From positions 1 to 20,153 of the IMG/VR virus record IMGVR_UViG_3300021373_001468: a stretch of DNA of 20,153 bases, one strand, 5' to 3'. The DNA comes from a virus. Below are positions 14,761 to 19,921 of the stretch, one piece after another (position 1 is the stretch's first letter; every line of letters starts with the position of its first letter). The position numbers were made by a program, and so were the translations under genes. The notes beneath the pieces were generated by a model. It was given only the letters and a program-made list of their open reading frames with translations. It did no database searches and had not been told where the DNA came from.

Positions 14761-16133
14761 GCAAAGAATTCTTCTAGTGTTGAAACTGCAACGTTCTTAA
14801 ATAAATCTACAGAGGTGTCTTTACTAAAACACCATACGTTTTCTATATACATCTTATCAAAGAATTCGTGTAATGCTTCTTGGTCAAACTCACCGTCTTC
14901 TGTTGCGAATACATTTTTACCTTGTGGTCGTTGCATGATTCTCATGCCAACTTGACCAATGAAATTGTTTCTTAACATATCAACGAGTTCATCACCTGAC
15001 CTATATCTTTTGTTTTTAATTTTAGGGTCTAAAATGTTTATCATTAATATGCCTGTATCACTAAGGGCATCAAATGATTTTTGTGAAACAGGTAAATAGA
15101 ACTCGTCTCTCCACTTTTCATATTCATTAAACTTTGCCCATGATTGGTCTTCTTCATGTTCACCACCTTTGTTGTATTCTTCAGTTGAGAAATATGGTGG
15201 AGATGTGAATGCACAATCGATTGGTGGTAATGTTTCGTATGGTAAGTTCTCTGCACCACATCTATAGATTGTAACTTTCTTTGAACCCTCTGATATAAAT
15301 TTATCATCTTCGAAATACATGTAAGGTTCGTTACCTGTTAGTATTTTTTCATATGCAACACATTGTTTTTTGTATTGTTCAAAGACATTTGGATTTGGGT
15401 CGCAACCATAATACTCATCTGCATTCGAAGTGTAGAAACCACAAAGTCTATCACCCCAACCACATGATGTATCTAAAATAGTTTTTGCTTGTGTAAGTTC
15501 ATAGATTGCTCTTGCGACATTTGGTTTGAACTGAGTTGCAACGTAAGTGCCTAATCTGAATGATGATATATAACTCTTCTCTGCAAGTTCACCACCTACT
15601 AATCGTTCTTCACCATCAATCTGAACTTTCTTAACACCGTTGATGCCCCTCCAAATCGGACCTAGACAACTCCATATTTCTTTTGCTGTCCCAGATTTGA
15701 AAACTTCTACAGGTGATTTGTAACCATAACTGCCACATGCGAGTCTTAAATGTTGATGAAAGTAATCACTTGCATCATTAAATGTATGAGTAGAATCAAT
15801 AACACCTAGTCCGTATTCATTGAAGTCATATTTGTAATCATCATATTTTTCTAAGACTTCTTTTTGTAAATCTTTAACTGCTGTTACATCACGGAATGGG
15901 TCTGAATCTTTGAGTGCGAGAAACATGTTTCTGTATCTCTCTTCAGAGATAATCTTCATAGGATATTCTGGTCTTTCAGTAGCAATAAATTTAGCAAGTG
16001 TTTCTCTAAAAAGTTCTTTGCCAAATTCATCGTTCAAACTTTGAAAGGTATGACTATCTAGGATAGGCACACCTCTCTCGTTTGTATTCTGTTTAAGAAC
16101 TTGGTATAGTTTATCCGACAAAGTCCTCACCAT
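14757..16133 (-). CDS. DNA (likely N4-cytosine/N6-adenine) methyltransferase
   Basis: 458 residues. SAM-binding motif I is DTSCGWGDRL (221-230), motif II acidic residue D245 in GCDPN, and catalytic motif IV is TSPPYF (310-315); the S/TPPY form is often found in N4-cytosine enzymes, but N6-adenine cannot be excluded. A 200-residue N-terminal region of unknown fold precedes motif I and may help recognise target DNA. No restriction endonuclease is adjacent, so it looks like an orphan methylase protecting phage DNA. It ends STLEEFFA, which resembles the polymerase's clamp-binding-like SLDSFFA tail. It overlaps peroxiredoxin by 23 bases upstream and the acetyltransferase by 4. ATG 16133 and the adjacent GTG are both possible starts. 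Confidence 0.85.
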   Translation of the reverse strand: MVRTLSDKLYQVLKQNTNERGVPILDSHTFQSLNDEFGKELFRETLAKFIATERPEYPMKIISEERYRNMFLALKDSDPFRDVTAVKDLQKEVLEKYDDYKYDFNEYGLGVIDSTHTFNDASDYFHQHLRLACGSYGYKSPVEVFKSGTAKEIWSCLGPIWRGINGVKKVQIDGEERLVGGELAEKSYISSFRLGTYVATQFKPNVARAIYELTQAKTILDTSCGWGDRLCGFYTSNADEYYGCDPNPNVFEQYKKQCVAYEKILTGNEPYMYFEDDKFISEGSKKVTIYRCGAENLPYETLPPIDCAFTSPPYFSTEEYNKGGEHEEDQSWAKFNEYEKWRDEFYLPVSQKSFDALSDTGILMINILDPKIKNKRYRSGDELVDMLRNNFIGQVGMRIMQRPQGKNVFATEDGEFDQEALHEFFDKMYIENVWCFSKDTSVDLFKNVAVSTLEEFFA

Positions 16134-16632
16134 CTTCCCAACCGCAACCTGTTAGTCCACCTGCTTGTAAACCTTGTAGAGTTCTTAGAACTTCTTTATG
16201 GTTTCTTCCAGTGTCTAGTGCATTGATTGAGGCATGTTGAATGACTCTGTTTTTGTCAAAGATAAAAGTTGCACGATAGCACACACCTTCTTCTTCGTTA
16301 ACGATACCTAATGCAGATGATAATCCAAGTCCACAATCAGCGGCAAGAGTATGTCTGATATTACCTATCAATTCATTCTCTTTTTTCCATGCTAATTTAC
16401 AGAACTCGTTATCACCACTTATTCCTATCACGTTTGCGTGGTCGACTAAAGTGTCGAAACCAGCAATCTCTGTAGGGCATATAAAGGTAAAGTCTTTTGG
16501 ATAAAAGTAAACTACTGACCAATCATGTTTTAATGGTTCATAGTTTTCTTCTACACTGACTCTCACAAATTCGTTGTTTTCGTTAATTCCTTGCAGTGAG
16601 AAAGCAGGAAATAAATCTCCAACTGATAACAT
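16111..16632 (-). CDS. 2-Cys peroxiredoxin (AhpC/Prx1 type)
   Basis: 173 residues, slightly shorter than cellular 2-Cys enzymes (about 185-200). The peroxidatic site is FYPKDFTFICPTE with Cys52 and the conserved Pro/Thr. The resolving Cys is probably Cys163 in LTGCGWEDGED, replacing the usual VCPxxW. The protein would reduce hydrogen peroxide or organic hydroperoxides using host thioredoxin or AhpF. It has a good ribosome-binding site (AAAGGAG, seven bases before ATG) and a strong sigma70-like promoter with an internal palindrome. It follows hsp20, suggesting a stress-protection pair, and overlaps the methyltransferase. Such auxiliary genes are unusual in phages and this one is likely host-derived. 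Confidence 0.92.
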   Translation of the reverse strand: MLSVGDLFPAFSLQGINENNEFVRVSVEENYEPLKHDWSVVYFYPKDFTFICPTEIAGFDTLVDHANVIGISGDNEFCKLAWKKENELIGNIRHTLAADCGLGLSSALGIVNEEEGVCYRATFIFDKNRVIQHASINALDTGRNHKEVLRTLQGLQAGGLTGCGWEDGEDFVG

Positions 16633-16700: not shown

Positions 16701-17111
16701 CTACTTAATTTTGATAGATACTGGTTTATCTTCTTCAGGAATAACTCTTACCAGTTTGACATGTAGAATACCATCTTTCATGTCTGCACCACTGACTTCA
16801 ACATCATCTGCAAGTGTGAAACTTCTTTTGAAAGCTCTTGATGCAAGTCCTTTGTGGACAAAATCTTTTGAGTCTTCATCAAGTTTACCTTCGATGGTTA
16901 AAAGAGTTTTCTCTTTAGTGATTTCAATATCTTTCTTACCAAATCCTGCAACTGCAAGTTCAATGCAAAAGTTTTCTGCATCTTCTTGTACTATGTTGTA
17001 AGGTGGGTAATTAGTTTGAGTGTGATTTGATAGACGATTGAGTTCATCAAAGTATCTATCGAATCCAATTGTGAGTGGTCTGAATTGACCAAATATATCT
17101 AAATGAGTCAT
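16701..17111 (-). CDS. hsp20: Hsp20 small heat-shock protein
   Basis: 136 residues. A short N-terminal arm (FGQFRPLTIGFDRYFDEL) is followed by the alpha-crystallin domain: YPPYNIVQEDAENFCIELAVAGF, an IEITKEKTLLTIEG segment, HKGLASRAFKRSFTLADDV, and the DGILHVKL version of the conserved A-x-x-x-GVL motif. The tail PVSIKIK contains an IxI oligomerisation motif. This is the IbpA-like class found in most marine T4-like phages, where it probably helps fold or protect phage proteins. A strong SD (AGGAG) precedes the ATG. Upstream, 130 bases of predicted leader contain a stable stem-loop, raising the possibility of RNA-level control as in several bacterial small heat-shock genes. Confidence 0.95.
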   Translation of the reverse strand: MTHLDIFGQFRPLTIGFDRYFDELNRLSNHTQTNYPPYNIVQEDAENFCIELAVAGFGKKDIEITKEKTLLTIEGKLDEDSKDFVHKGLASRAFKRSFTLADDVEVSGADMKDGILHVKLVRVIPEEDKPVSIKIK

Positions 17112-17140
17112 ATTTTCTCCTATTATAGCAAGTTAATAAT

Positions 17141-17242
17141 CTTGACCCCTTTTGGGCATCAAGTAGTGTTGAGAACCGCGCTCTTTTGAAGATAGTTTTC
17201 CCGAAGGTCATACCCGAGCGCTTTTGAAGTTCTCGAACACTA
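17141..17242 (-). ncRNA. Structured leader RNA upstream of hsp20
   Basis: On the minus strand, TAGTGTTcGAGAAC (17242-17229) pairs with GTTCTCAACACTA (17176-17164): 13 base pairs with one bulged C. Inside it, GCGCTC (17221-17216) pairs with GAGCGC (17183-17178), enclosing a 32-base apical region with CCUUCGGG. A second hairpin, CTTGA..CCC-aaaa-GGG..TCAAG (17163-17141), abuts the first with no gap. The decamer-like CTTCAAAAG occurs in both strands of the internal loops. A sigma70-like promoter places +1 at the base of the first stem. This could be a 5' leader riboregulator or thermosensor for hsp20, or a stand-alone small RNA. It matches no Rfam family I can recognise. Confidence 0.6.
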
Positions 17243-17246
17243 GTAT

Positions 17247-17276
17247 ATTATATATGTCTTTTTACAAATTTTTCAA
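17247..17276 (-). promoter_or_regulatory. Sigma70-like promoter for the structured RNA/hsp20
   Basis: Minus strand: TTGAAA (17276-17271), 18-base spacer, TATAAT (17252-17247). Predicted +1 about 17240, at the first paired bases of the stem-loop RNA, giving a leader of about 130 bases before hsp20. Confidence 0.6.
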
Positions 17277-17295
17277 GTGGTTTTTGTAAAAAAAG

Positions 17296-17406
17296 TTAAA
17301 AAATTGACCTAACGACATTTTGTAGTCGTCCACATTTCATAAGTTCGTGTAGTTTGTCTGCTTGTGTCCTGAGATACGAGGCAGACAATGATGCAAATTT
17401 ACGCAT
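17296..17406 (-). CDS. 36-codon ORF with strong ribosome-binding site
   Basis: ATG 17406 is preceded by CAGGAGAT, a strong Shine-Dalgarno at seven-base spacing. The peptide begins MRKFASLSASYLRTQADKL and ends in VVRSIF before TAA. It is basic, with an amphipathic helical look and one Cys. It sits between the promoter region at 17524-17552 and the hsp20 promoter, with about 100 bases of leader in front. It might be a true micro-protein or a leader peptide. There is no recognised family, and at this length the ORF could arise by chance; the ribosome-binding site is the main support. Confidence 0.45.
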   Translation of the reverse strand: MRKFASLSASYLRTQADKLHELMKCGRLQNVVRSIF

Positions 17407-17482
17407 TTTTATCTCCTGTTATTTTTAGTAACTATCTGACAACTGGACTTCGATTTCTCTACTTACTCTTTGTGTCGTAATT

Positions 17483-17768: not shown

Positions 17769-18369
17769 GTTTCTGGCATCCACTTTTTGCTCTTTGAATT
17801 ACGTTTAGATTATTACCAATAACCAATACCATAAATCTATTGGTTGAACGAATAGATGCGGCGTTTAAATTACCATGTTTTCTATCGTATTCTAGTGCTG
17901 GTGTTAATAATCCAAATTTATAAAAGAACAATCTTTCAGGTGTTGGATTTTCACCAAACAAGGGATTCGCTTCTTTAACACAATCATACTTTAAACCATA
18001 GATTGTTGACCAAACATCTAAAAATTGTAATGTAGTAAAAATTACCCAATCACCTGTAGAAGGTGGGTCAATCAGTTCCCAGTGGTGTGTATATTCGAAC
18101 CTTTTCGGATTTACCCTTAACAAGTATTCTGTCGACTTCAGTAAATGCTCTTGATGGACACTGTTGATATGTTCGTTCCGATAACAACACGTCCACCCCA
18201 TCATAATTTCTTGTTTGTCCCTCGAGTCTAGCACCAAGGTTGACGGCGTCTCCAATGACGGAATAGTCAAATCTAATTTCTGACCCCATGTTTCCGACAA
18301 TACATTCTCCTGTGCTAATGCCGATACCGACATTAATAGGAGGGAGATTGAGAGGAGATAGTTCTTCAT
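17764..18369 (-). CDS. Secreted/membrane protein overprinting the cyclase 3' end; start uncertain
   Basis: 201 residues if ATG 18369 is used. That start has AAGGA five bases upstream and encodes MKNYLLSISLLLMSVSALAQ, a convincing signal peptide with an A-x-A-type cleavage site. The first 302 bases lie in another frame over the cyclase catalytic-domain codons. The non-overlapping part (last ~100 residues) looks like a real family: STGDWVIFTTLQFLDVWSTI, then KEANPLFGENP and a Lys/Phe/Leu segment, similar to small membrane proteins of the LQxxDxxST...NPLxG type (DUF5658-like, from memory). Either the gene is a true overlap, or it starts at an internal or non-ATG codon near 18068 and the signal peptide is coincidence. 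The C-terminal half is believable; the N-terminus is not settled. Confidence 0.55.
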   Translation of the reverse strand: MKNYLLSISLLLMSVSALAQENVLSETWGQKLDLTIPSLETPSTLVLDSRDKQEIMMGWTCCYRNEHINSVHQEHLLKSTEYLLRVNPKRFEYTHHWELIDPPSTGDWVIFTTLQFLDVWSTIYGLKYDCVKEANPLFGENPTPERLFFYKFGLLTPALEYDRKHGNLNAASIRSTNRFMVLVIGNNLNVIQRAKSGCQKR

Positions 18370-19921
18370 TAAGTTCCTTGGTTGCCTCTAGTACTTCTAG
18401 AGCTGATTTTACGGCGAGTTCTGCATGGTCTTCACAATCAAGGGGTGCATTCCAAAATGCCATGATACAATCGCCCATATACTTATCTATGGTGCCTCTG
18501 TTATTTATTATTATTTTTGTTTGCATGTCTAAAAACTTGTTGATGAGTTCAACTAATCCCTCTGGGTCATCATTGTTCTTATATGCCTCAGAGATTGGAG
18601 TAAATCCACATATATCCATAAACATGAAAGTCATTTCTTTTCTTTCCCCACCTAATCTGAGTTTGCTAGGGTCTTTCTGAAGTTCTTCAACCATGTCAGG
18701 AGATAAATATTTCTGGAACTGCTTCTTAATTTGTTCTTTGAGTTGATACGTTACATAGTATTTGTTGAATGAAGCATGACCAAAAACAATCATTGAGGAC
18801 ATTGATGACAAGAAAGTATCGAAAAGAACGTACTCAGAAATCCAAATATAATAACCCCCACCCAATTGAAGTCCAATTATACTTAGACTCACTATCGCCG
18901 AAAGACTTGTGGGAAGTTTGTAAACCACTGCCAGAATTAATAAAAGCACTGCCAGTAGAACGACAACTTCAAGAAATTCAAGATAGTAGGATTGTTGTAT
19001 ACGAACTTCTTGCAAGACGGTTTGGATTAGGTGTGCTTGAACTTCATGAGGATACATTGTACCCACTGGAGTTGAAATTGGATTATTCAATCCCTCAGCA
19101 GTTAGACCCCATACTAGAACCTTGTTTGTAAAATCAGGTAATTCCTGAAGGTCACTTGCTGAAACACGATTGAAGTGATTCCAGTATGAAATCATAACAT
19201 CACTTGTTGGTGTTGTTTCAATAGGAGGTGCCTTTCCCATACGCACCCATTCTATACCTACTTCTTCTGTAACTTTAGTTTGATAACTCCCCATATCATA
19301 TAATGCTCTGAGAGTTTCTAATGCTAATGATGGATATACTTGTTCATTGGCATACACAAGCAATGGGGCACTTCTTATAGTCCCATCAAAATTAGACGTT
19401 CCTGAGACGGCTGGTGTTGCTACAGTAACACCTACACCGTAAGTATTGTTCTTTAATATATCTACAGGACTTGCTATTCCATCATATTGCCATATGGAAT
19501 CTTGAATCGAACCTCCTCCAAATGTACTTGTAGGGACAAATGGTGCCGAGCCAGTGTTTTTCTGATTAGTTGGCTGTGAGGATAAAATTGTTAATCTGTT
19601 GATTAAACCCTCTGCAAATAGCTCATCTTGGCCGAATCTATCTGGTTCAGTAAAGGCAATTGAGAAGACATGCGTAAGTGAAGGACTTGAGGAAAGTAGA
19701 ATCTCTCTATAGATATCTCTCGGCCATGGGAACTGACCATATTTTTCTAATGCTTTCTCATCGATATCTACTAGAACGATATCGTCTACGTGAACTTTTT
19801 CTTCTTGTTGATGTAGAAAGTCAAACCATGACCATGATATATTTTCTATGAAATACGGATTCCAAATCTTAAGACCAACTAATAGTCCTATTGTAACTAA
19901 AACAGTTTTCCAACTATACAC
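18068..19921 (-). CDS. CHASE2-transmembrane class III adenylate cyclase
   Basis: 617 residues from GTG 19921, overlapping the iscU stop by 8 bases. One N-terminal span (about 5-22) is followed by an extracytoplasmic CHASE2 sensor (about 40-310; VDDIVLVDIDEKALEKYGQF and FPWPRDIY are typical), then about three spans (315-390), a linker, and the cyclase domain (about 428-612). Metal aspartates D436 (FMDICGF) and D484 (YMGDCIMAFW), Lys480, Ser554 in the Asp/Thr adenine site (FDYSVIGDAVN), and transition-state N561 and R565 are all present, so it should make cAMP at the inner membrane in response to an external signal. Some 60-base blocks count 45-48% G+C against 37-38% in sampled polymerase blocks, hinting at later acquisition. 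Such receptors are cellular proteins and very rare in phages. Confidence 0.92.
   Translation of the reverse strand: MYSWKTVLVTIGLLVGLKIWNPYFIENISWSWFDFLHQQEEKVHVDDIVLVDIDEKALEKYGQFPWPRDIYREILLSSSPSLTHVFSIAFTEPDRFGQDELFAEGLINRLTILSSQPTNQKNTGSAPFVPTSTFGGGSIQDSIWQYDGIASPVDILKNNTYGVGVTVATPAVSGTSNFDGTIRSAPLLVYANEQVYPSLALETLRALYDMGSYQTKVTEEVGIEWVRMGKAPPIETTPTSDVMISYWNHFNRVSASDLQELPDFTNKVLVWGLTAEGLNNPISTPVGTMYPHEVQAHLIQTVLQEVRIQQSYYLEFLEVVVLLAVLLLILAVVYKLPTSLSAIVSLSIIGLQLGGGYYIWISEYVLFDTFLSSMSSMIVFGHASFNKYYVTYQLKEQIKKQFQKYLSPDMVEELQKDPSKLRLGGERKEMTFMFMDICGFTPISEAYKNNDDPEGLVELINKFLDMQTKIIINNRGTIDKYMGDCIMAFWNAPLDCEDHAELAVKSALEVLEATKELNEELSPLNLPPINVGIGISTGECIVGNMGSEIRFDYSVIGDAVNLGARLEGQTRNYDGVDVLLSERTYQQCPSRAFTEVDRILVKGKSEKVRIYTPLGTD

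Follow-up and report, generated by a model that had tools for sequence, protein, structure and literature searches.

The leader of hsp20 on the minus strand of a T4-like marine phage fragment (20,153 bases from a virus record; this whole stretch is referred to as the window) is best read as two separate RNA elements: a ROSE-type RNA thermometer adjacent to the gene and, at the start of the leader, a structured element designated motif B. The probability that this two-element reading, including a working ROSE element, is right is estimated at roughly 0.7. The sequence makes it very probable that the 3' part of the leader is a thermometer of the ROSE type, and a temperature response of hsp20 translation would follow from this kinship. 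The features of the leader are listed below in the direction of transcription; all are on the minus strand.

17247..17276, minus strand: predicted sigma-70-type promoter, TTGAAA (17276-17271) and TATAAT (17252-17247) separated by 18 nt, 11/12 consensus matches
17164..17242, minus strand: motif B with its outer extension, from the fold, a covariance model and covariation
17242-17236/17170-17164, minus strand: outer extension of motif B
17234-17229/17176-17171, minus strand: helix P1 of motif B
17228-17222, minus strand: first loop of motif B, UUCAAAA, opposite G17177
17221-17216/17183-17178, minus strand: helix P2 of motif B, GCGCUC/GAGCGC
17214-17211/17194-17191, minus strand: helix P3 of motif B
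17210-17195, minus strand: variable inner part of motif B
17190-17184, minus strand: second loop of motif B, UUCAAAA, opposite G17215
17106..17165, minus strand: whole match to ROSE_3 (RF02523), 34.8 bits (gathering cut-off 43), E 1.3e-5
17141..17163, minus strand: ROSE hairpin I, CUUGAU-G-CCC-AAAA-GGG-GUCAAG, from the Rfam ROSE_3 alignment and covariation in 58 leaders
17117..17131, minus strand: core of ROSE hairpin II, anti-SD UUGCU (17131-17127) facing SD AGGAG (17121-17117), from the Rfam ROSE_3 alignment and conserved in phage hsp20 leaders
16701..17111, minus strand: hsp20, the controlled gene, a small heat-shock protein of 136 aa (Pfam PF00011, E 1e-16; PHROG 432, E 1.2e-42)

The phage fragment and the fold of the hsp20 leader

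The DNA polymerase of the window is ~47% identical to marine cyanophage polymerases, and its Pfam content comprises Hsp20, an AhpC/TSA peroxiredoxin, a B-family DNA polymerase, a RecA-type protein, a phage lysozyme and a CHASE2-cyclase. The hsp20 gene is a core gene of T4-like cyanophages (PMC3037559; PMC9004378), and no description of the regulation of phage hsp20 genes was found in the open-access literature. In the window, hsp20 is followed by the AhpC/TSA peroxiredoxin gene (16111-16632, minus strand), and in relatives by a different peroxiredoxin-like gene (L113:637-1191; L289:1980-2477), which suggests that hsp20 and its peroxiredoxin neighbours form a stress-protein cassette. Just upstream of the hsp20 promoter lies a small ORF of ~36 aa with its own SD (17299-17407, minus strand), and L289, L290 and L253 contain similar small ORFs at this position. 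The gene at 18068-19921 (minus strand) combines CHASE2 with an adenylate/guanylate cyclase catalytic domain, an unusual protein for a phage. A homologue is found in the matching place, upstream of hsp20, in L186 (JAAXIF010000105.1), a 121-kb contig that is binned as a Sphingobacteriales MAG and is a close relative of the window phage; L186 is probably either a misbinned virus or a clue to the host. The window also encodes a TET-associated glycosyltransferase (PF20691; 5970-7466, minus strand), pointing to DNA hypermodification.

A first-pass annotation of the sequence had proposed a single promoter-led RNA structure in front of hsp20, consisting of a bulged stem with a nested stem and an abutting second hairpin, as a possible riboregulator or thermosensor. 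Folding reproduced these parts at the proposed location. The stem has 7 + 6 bp (UAGUGUU/AACACUA, one bulged C, GAGAAC/GUUCUC) and encloses the 6-bp helix GCGCUC/GAGCGC, and the second hairpin (CUUGAUgCCC-AAAA-GGGGUCAAG) directly abuts it. The suggestion that such pairing is unlikely by chance holds as well: the minimum free energy of the minus-strand leader (17242-17112) is -37.1 kcal/mol, compared with -25.2 ± 3.7 kcal/mol for shuffled sequences (z -3.2), none of 200 shuffles was as good, and relatives keep the pairs through two-sided changes. The absence of compensatory changes in relatives had been named beforehand as an outcome that would refute the proposal; such changes were looked for and are present. 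The structure is real and in place, then, and only its unity has to be given up, since the first stem and the second hairpin are parts of different modules, i.e., of two independent elements. Its 3' boundary shifts too: it had been placed 30 bases before the SD, but the hairpin ends at 17141, ~19 nt before AGGAG (17121-17117).

The 11/12-consensus promoter lies just upstream of the structure, and most relatives have a homologous promoter where their leader begins. The transcript start predicted from this promoter (~17241/17240) coincides with the first pairs of the outer stem. No intrinsic terminator (a G+C stem followed by a U run) is found on the minus strand in 17112-17276.

The ROSE-type element

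A sensitive cmscan search over 17000-17400 gave a match to ROSE_3 along the full length of the model. The score of the window copy is below the gathering cut-off; among its relatives, L077 scores 45.0 bits, which is above the cut-off of 43, while L069, L037 and another leader score 41.3, 40.6 and 33.2 bits, respectively, and the isolate Melnitz-3 scores 34.1 bits. The anatomy of the element corresponds to that of ROSE. It is located in the 5' UTR, directly upstream of an Hsp20/IbpA gene (hsp20, 16701-17111, PF00011); its 3' hairpin contains a U(U/C)GCU sequence, here UUGCU, that pairs imperfectly with the SD AGGAG; and hairpin I provides one of the one to three further stable hairpins that are located upstream in ROSE elements. 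The U(U/C)GCU sequence is the hallmark of ROSE-like thermometers, and functional ROSE leaders with two hairpins and a length of ~62 nt are known in Pseudomonas (PMC3669281). The shortest clearly promoter-led phage hsp20 leaders have a length of ~61-77 nt.

This anatomy is widespread. Phage hsp20 loci were collected in protein searches (79, 80 and 26 loci, partly overlapping), supplemented with 13 from phage records, mostly isolates. Where the upstream sequence is long enough, nearly every phage hsp20 leader has UUGCU or UCGCU facing AGGAG behind a hairpin, and the core UGCYC...GRGGU is found in most of the leaders with ROSE-type anatomy. These include the leaders of the cyanophages S-CRM01, P-SSM4 and S-SM2, of the pelagiphages HTVC008M and Mosig, and of Melnitz; in S-TIM61 and P-HM2, as annotated, the ROSE anatomy is not clearly seen. 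Hairpin I covaries: across 58 leaders, two-sided changes were counted in 99 cells, compared with 32 ± 8 in shuffles, and 93.6% of the cells are paired, compared with at most 57% when the partners were slid.

For the SD of the window, an accessibility of 0.025 is predicted at 4°C, 0.058 at 25°C and 0.21 at 42°C, a rise that does not depend on the presence of motif B. Such predicted melting was rejected as proof of thermosensing, as it does not discriminate from shuffles: across 74 phage ROSE leaders, the nearest-neighbour accessibility of the SD is not below that of controls with a shuffled 5' part, being lower in only 41% of the leaders, and the SDs of some other genes in the window are predicted to be equally hidden as that of hsp20. 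Thus, the energy model by itself does not single these leaders out as thermometers, and the thermometer assignment rests on kinship and conserved anatomy. ROSE elements rely on non-canonical pairs that are outside the nearest-neighbour energy model. The earlier thermosensor proposal is therefore retained for the 3' hairpins, which form the ROSE-type element, and dropped for the big 5' stem, whose removal leaves the predicted accessibility of the SD unchanged.

Motif B and its competing explanations

The big 5' stem is a conserved RNA motif in its own right, which may act as a riboregulator. It is built in the order P1, C-UUNAAAA-G/C-G-G, P2 (GNGCNC/GNGCNC), C-G-G/C-UUNAAAA-G, P3 and a variable inner part, so that two identical 7x1 internal loops are placed in a pseudo-two-fold arrangement around the 6-bp GC helix P2. 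The UUNAAAA loop may be T-loop-like, which we take as a lead. The covariance model R1 matches the window at 17239-17166 with 66.3 bits, a match expected by construction, as the window is one of the 24 sequences from which R1 was built. In these 24 diverse sequences, 95.3% of the cells are paired, and 82 two-sided changes were counted, compared with 28 ± 4 after shuffling; the covariation score is 0.58, compared with 0.18 in shuffles and at most 0.13 in slid controls. Likewise, 161 two-sided changes were found in 60 distinct sequences (45 in shuffles) and 69 in a reduced set of 22 (21 in shuffles). All three helices covary. The second pair of P2 is A-U, C-G, U-A or G-C and its fifth pair U-A, A-U or G-C, without a broken pair, in a set for which complementarity in P2 was a requirement at collection; pairing in P1 and P3 was not selected for. 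Complete rebuilding of P1 is seen in L027, L100/L208, L120, L289, L306 and L315, among others. That UUNAAAA and the fixed bases of P2 are invariant is partly a result of the search patterns, but identical UUNAAAA loops are present in leaders that were retrieved by protein search alone, without a pattern. Half modules, in which P2 is capped by a short loop, were detected with the covariance model in L239, L242 and L294, and the inner part of the motif is freely exchanged among relatives. Rfam yielded no credible match to motif B, neither in the window nor in relatives, at E up to 10 or 1-3; membership of a known Rfam class of riboswitches, ribozymes or other RNAs was ruled out on these grounds, and no tRNA or tmRNA was found in the contexts of motif B.

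Pattern scans covered 2.9 million viral contigs, and chance matches without a second half were removed. Motif B occurs in only two contexts: it either opens an hsp20 leader, with ROSE following, or lies in the 3' UTR or terminator of gp32. The hsp20 leaders contain 56 distinct sequences, all with ROSE downstream. The gp32 copies come from another phage group and comprise 17 contigs with ~12 distinct sequences (e.g., L329:2006-2100, L318, L321, L327 and others). In 15 of the 17, the C terminus of gp32 was read directly, with motif B located 25-63 nt past the stop codon in the same orientation; of the remaining contigs, L332 was assigned to the gp32 context separately and L338 is nearly identical to L321. 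The identity of gp32 is indicated by matches to PHROG 224, single-strand DNA binding protein (E 4e-116 and 2e-113). In several of these 3' UTRs, the outer stem of motif B and a U run form an intrinsic terminator between convergent genes. Each of 13 phage records (35-140 kb) contains exactly one motif B by pattern, with two half sites on one strand, and none has a match to the control pattern; G018, another small record, corresponds to the L027 contig. The covariance model found the same single copies in the phage records, plus a half module in G005. With R1, seven isolate genomes contained no motif B apart from a weak match in S-SM2 (E 0.037), which lies within a coding gene and was rejected. 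A blastn search of 50,697 phage records, including sequenced isolates, yielded no credible copy. In 257 Gb of bacterial genomes, 12 matches to an 18-base pattern were found, which is about the number expected by chance (7-8 by hand estimate); among these, only L186, itself a phage contig, has both halves.

In relatives, hsp20 leaders are of three kinds: ROSE alone (~61-77 nt), motif B plus ROSE (~120-176 nt) and multi-domain leaders (~250-400 nt). Many related leaders lack motif B or contain unrelated 5' domains. Recognizable promoters are located just upstream of the outermost stem in all three kinds, and the predicted transcript start is near the foot of the first stem in leaders with motif B and in those with ROSE alone alike. 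One inner hairpin (AUAACAAACCAAU...GUAGCAAC) is enclosed by motif B in L101/L143/L289, and in L297 it sits immediately on the outer stem. The exchange of this hairpin and the position of the promoters speak for motif B and the remaining 5' domains being RNA modules of the transcript rather than DNA operators. Leaders of ~300-400 nt (L289:1090-1500, L226, L223, L221, L027, L295, L292, L331:3310-3600) contain several more structured-looking domains without a match in Rfam, examples being a repeated AAGGGNNA...GAUCGUAAGUGAAGAAAACCUACUA unit and a GGCUACCCAACAAAGGACUGGAGAUGGCAACAUC domain. In many phage hsp20 leaders, e.g., those of L024, L028 and L081 and of the isolates L190, L192 and L193, the T4 late-promoter-like sequence TATAAATA is found beside the sigma-70-type -10 box or replaces it, which suggests early and late starts at one stem; the window has the sigma-70-type site only.

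What motif B does is less clear than what it is. The chances are about even that it represents a new structured RNA class of T4-like marine phages, one that is protein-coupled or dimerising, controls mRNA fate and is one of several swappable domains ahead of ROSE. Somewhat less probable, though still the favoured role, is that of an mRNA-end element. As the motif is located at the 5' end of one message and at the 3' end of another and does not pair with the SD, protection or protein binding is more plausible than ligand-gated translation; the fixed loops and symmetric layout point to dimer recognition or a particular tertiary fold rather than to a simple stabilizing hairpin.

A related explanation is that motif B is a site for nuclease processing or protein binding, at which RNase III, a phage RNA-binding protein or another homodimer matures or silences the hsp20 and gp32 mRNAs. 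The pseudo-two-fold layout with identical half sites, the terminal position of the motif in two distinct phage messages and the hairpin-capped half sites in L239, L242 and L294 agree with this explanation, but no candidate protein was found and each genome has one copy only, which leaves it rather doubtful. The motif might also be part of one extended ROSE element, as an additional upstream thermometer hairpin that aids the folding of ROSE. As many as four hairpins are found in classical ROSE elements (PMC3669281; PMC4166951), and in hsp20 leaders motif B is always located upstream of ROSE. However, it is found without ROSE in gp32 3' UTRs, many leaders have ROSE without it, the predicted pairing of the SD is unchanged by it, and its loops are conserved far beyond the needs of a spacer hairpin, even if part of this conservation stems from the search patterns. 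An extended ROSE element is, therefore, improbable.

Similarly little credence is given to motif B as a ligand-sensing riboswitch or aptamer that provides a second input to the translation or transcription of hsp20. Its fixed internal loops between covarying helices do resemble a recognition site, and marine phages are known to use riboswitches, e.g., the glutamine riboswitch of Melnitz (PMC9004378). However, no alternative pairing with the SD or ROSE and no terminator were found in the leader, the copies in the 3' UTR or terminator of gp32 face convergent genes and have no downstream co-directional gene to control, the inner part is freely swapped, and there is no match in Rfam. That the repeat in motif B is a DNA element, i.e., an operator or a mobile repeat, is very improbable: a near-palindrome and a 16-base direct repeat are present, but the sites are located downstream of the predicted promoter or in the gp32 3' UTR in the sense of gp32, they are single-copy in each genome with a constant orientation relative to the gene, and RNA-type covariation is seen in P1 and P3, both outside the repeat. 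The switch suggested in the first-pass annotation, in which GUUCUC of the big stem alternately pairs with GAGAA of the SD, has a complementarity of 5 bp in its favour but hardly deserves further consideration, given that the fold with this pairing enforced is less stable by 12.6 kcal/mol at 25°C (-43.1 vs. -55.7), P1 is rebuilt in relatives (L027 AUAGUUC, L208 UUUGUGAC) without matching changes in the SD, and the conserved partner of the SD is UUGCU.

Proposed mechanism and relation to known systems

In the two-element reading, the hsp20 mRNA would begin at the foot of motif B and contain two independently folding RNA elements. Hairpin I would serve as a stable spacer of the thermometer. At low temperature, the UUGCU strand of hairpin II would loosely cover the SD AGGAG; warming would melt this pairing, and the phage chaperone would be translated mainly in the warm infected cell. 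Motif B would form a three-helix rod, with its UUNAAAA/G loops in a two-fold layout, that closes the 5' end of the hsp20 mRNA and, in other phages, the 3' end of the gp32 mRNA. It may shield the transcript from nucleases and/or offer a site for a two-fold symmetric protein.

If this is true, a ROSE element in front of hsp20 in cyanophages, pelagiphages and a methylophage would imply that the chaperone supply of marine phages is tuned directly to temperature, which would bear on infection as the ocean warms. Motif B, which covaries and is common to hsp20 5' ends and gp32 3' ends, is a candidate for a new class of RNA, and the related leaders, which reach ~400 nt, show the hsp20 leader to be a hotspot for the swapping of RNA domains. 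The literature search, which covered open-access full text, yielded no description of phage ROSE thermometers or of motif B; the latter, apparently an uncatalogued RNA fold, is the more novel part of the leader.

With ROSE (RF02523 ROSE_3 and the short ROSE of Pseudomonas ibpA), the window element shares its position in the 5' UTR of a small heat-shock gene, the bulged G in hairpin I and the U(U/C)GCU sequence facing the SD. In contrast to known ROSE elements, it is phage-borne, its hairpin II is AT-rich and weak, its score is below the curated cut-off, and in some phages motif B or other large structured domains (to ~400 nt) precede it. Stem-loops at the 5' terminus, as in ompA, are stabilizers of mRNA. 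The hsp20 leader resembles them in that the predicted transcript start is within the first pairs of a stable stem, whereas the internal loops of motif B are fixed and symmetric, and the motif occurs in 3' UTRs as well. The manA and wcaG RNAs (RF01745, RF01761) are likewise structured 5'-UTR RNAs of marine T4-like phage genes, and manA RNAs have been reported upstream of ibpA chaperone genes (PMC2864571); with a threshold as loose as E 10, neither family was matched in Rfam searches of the window and its relatives. The cIII thermometer of phage lambda is another temperature-responsive leader on a phage gene (PMC4166951). However, via two alternative folds, the cIII leader is open in the cold and occluded in the heat (PMC4166951), whereas ROSE opens on warming.
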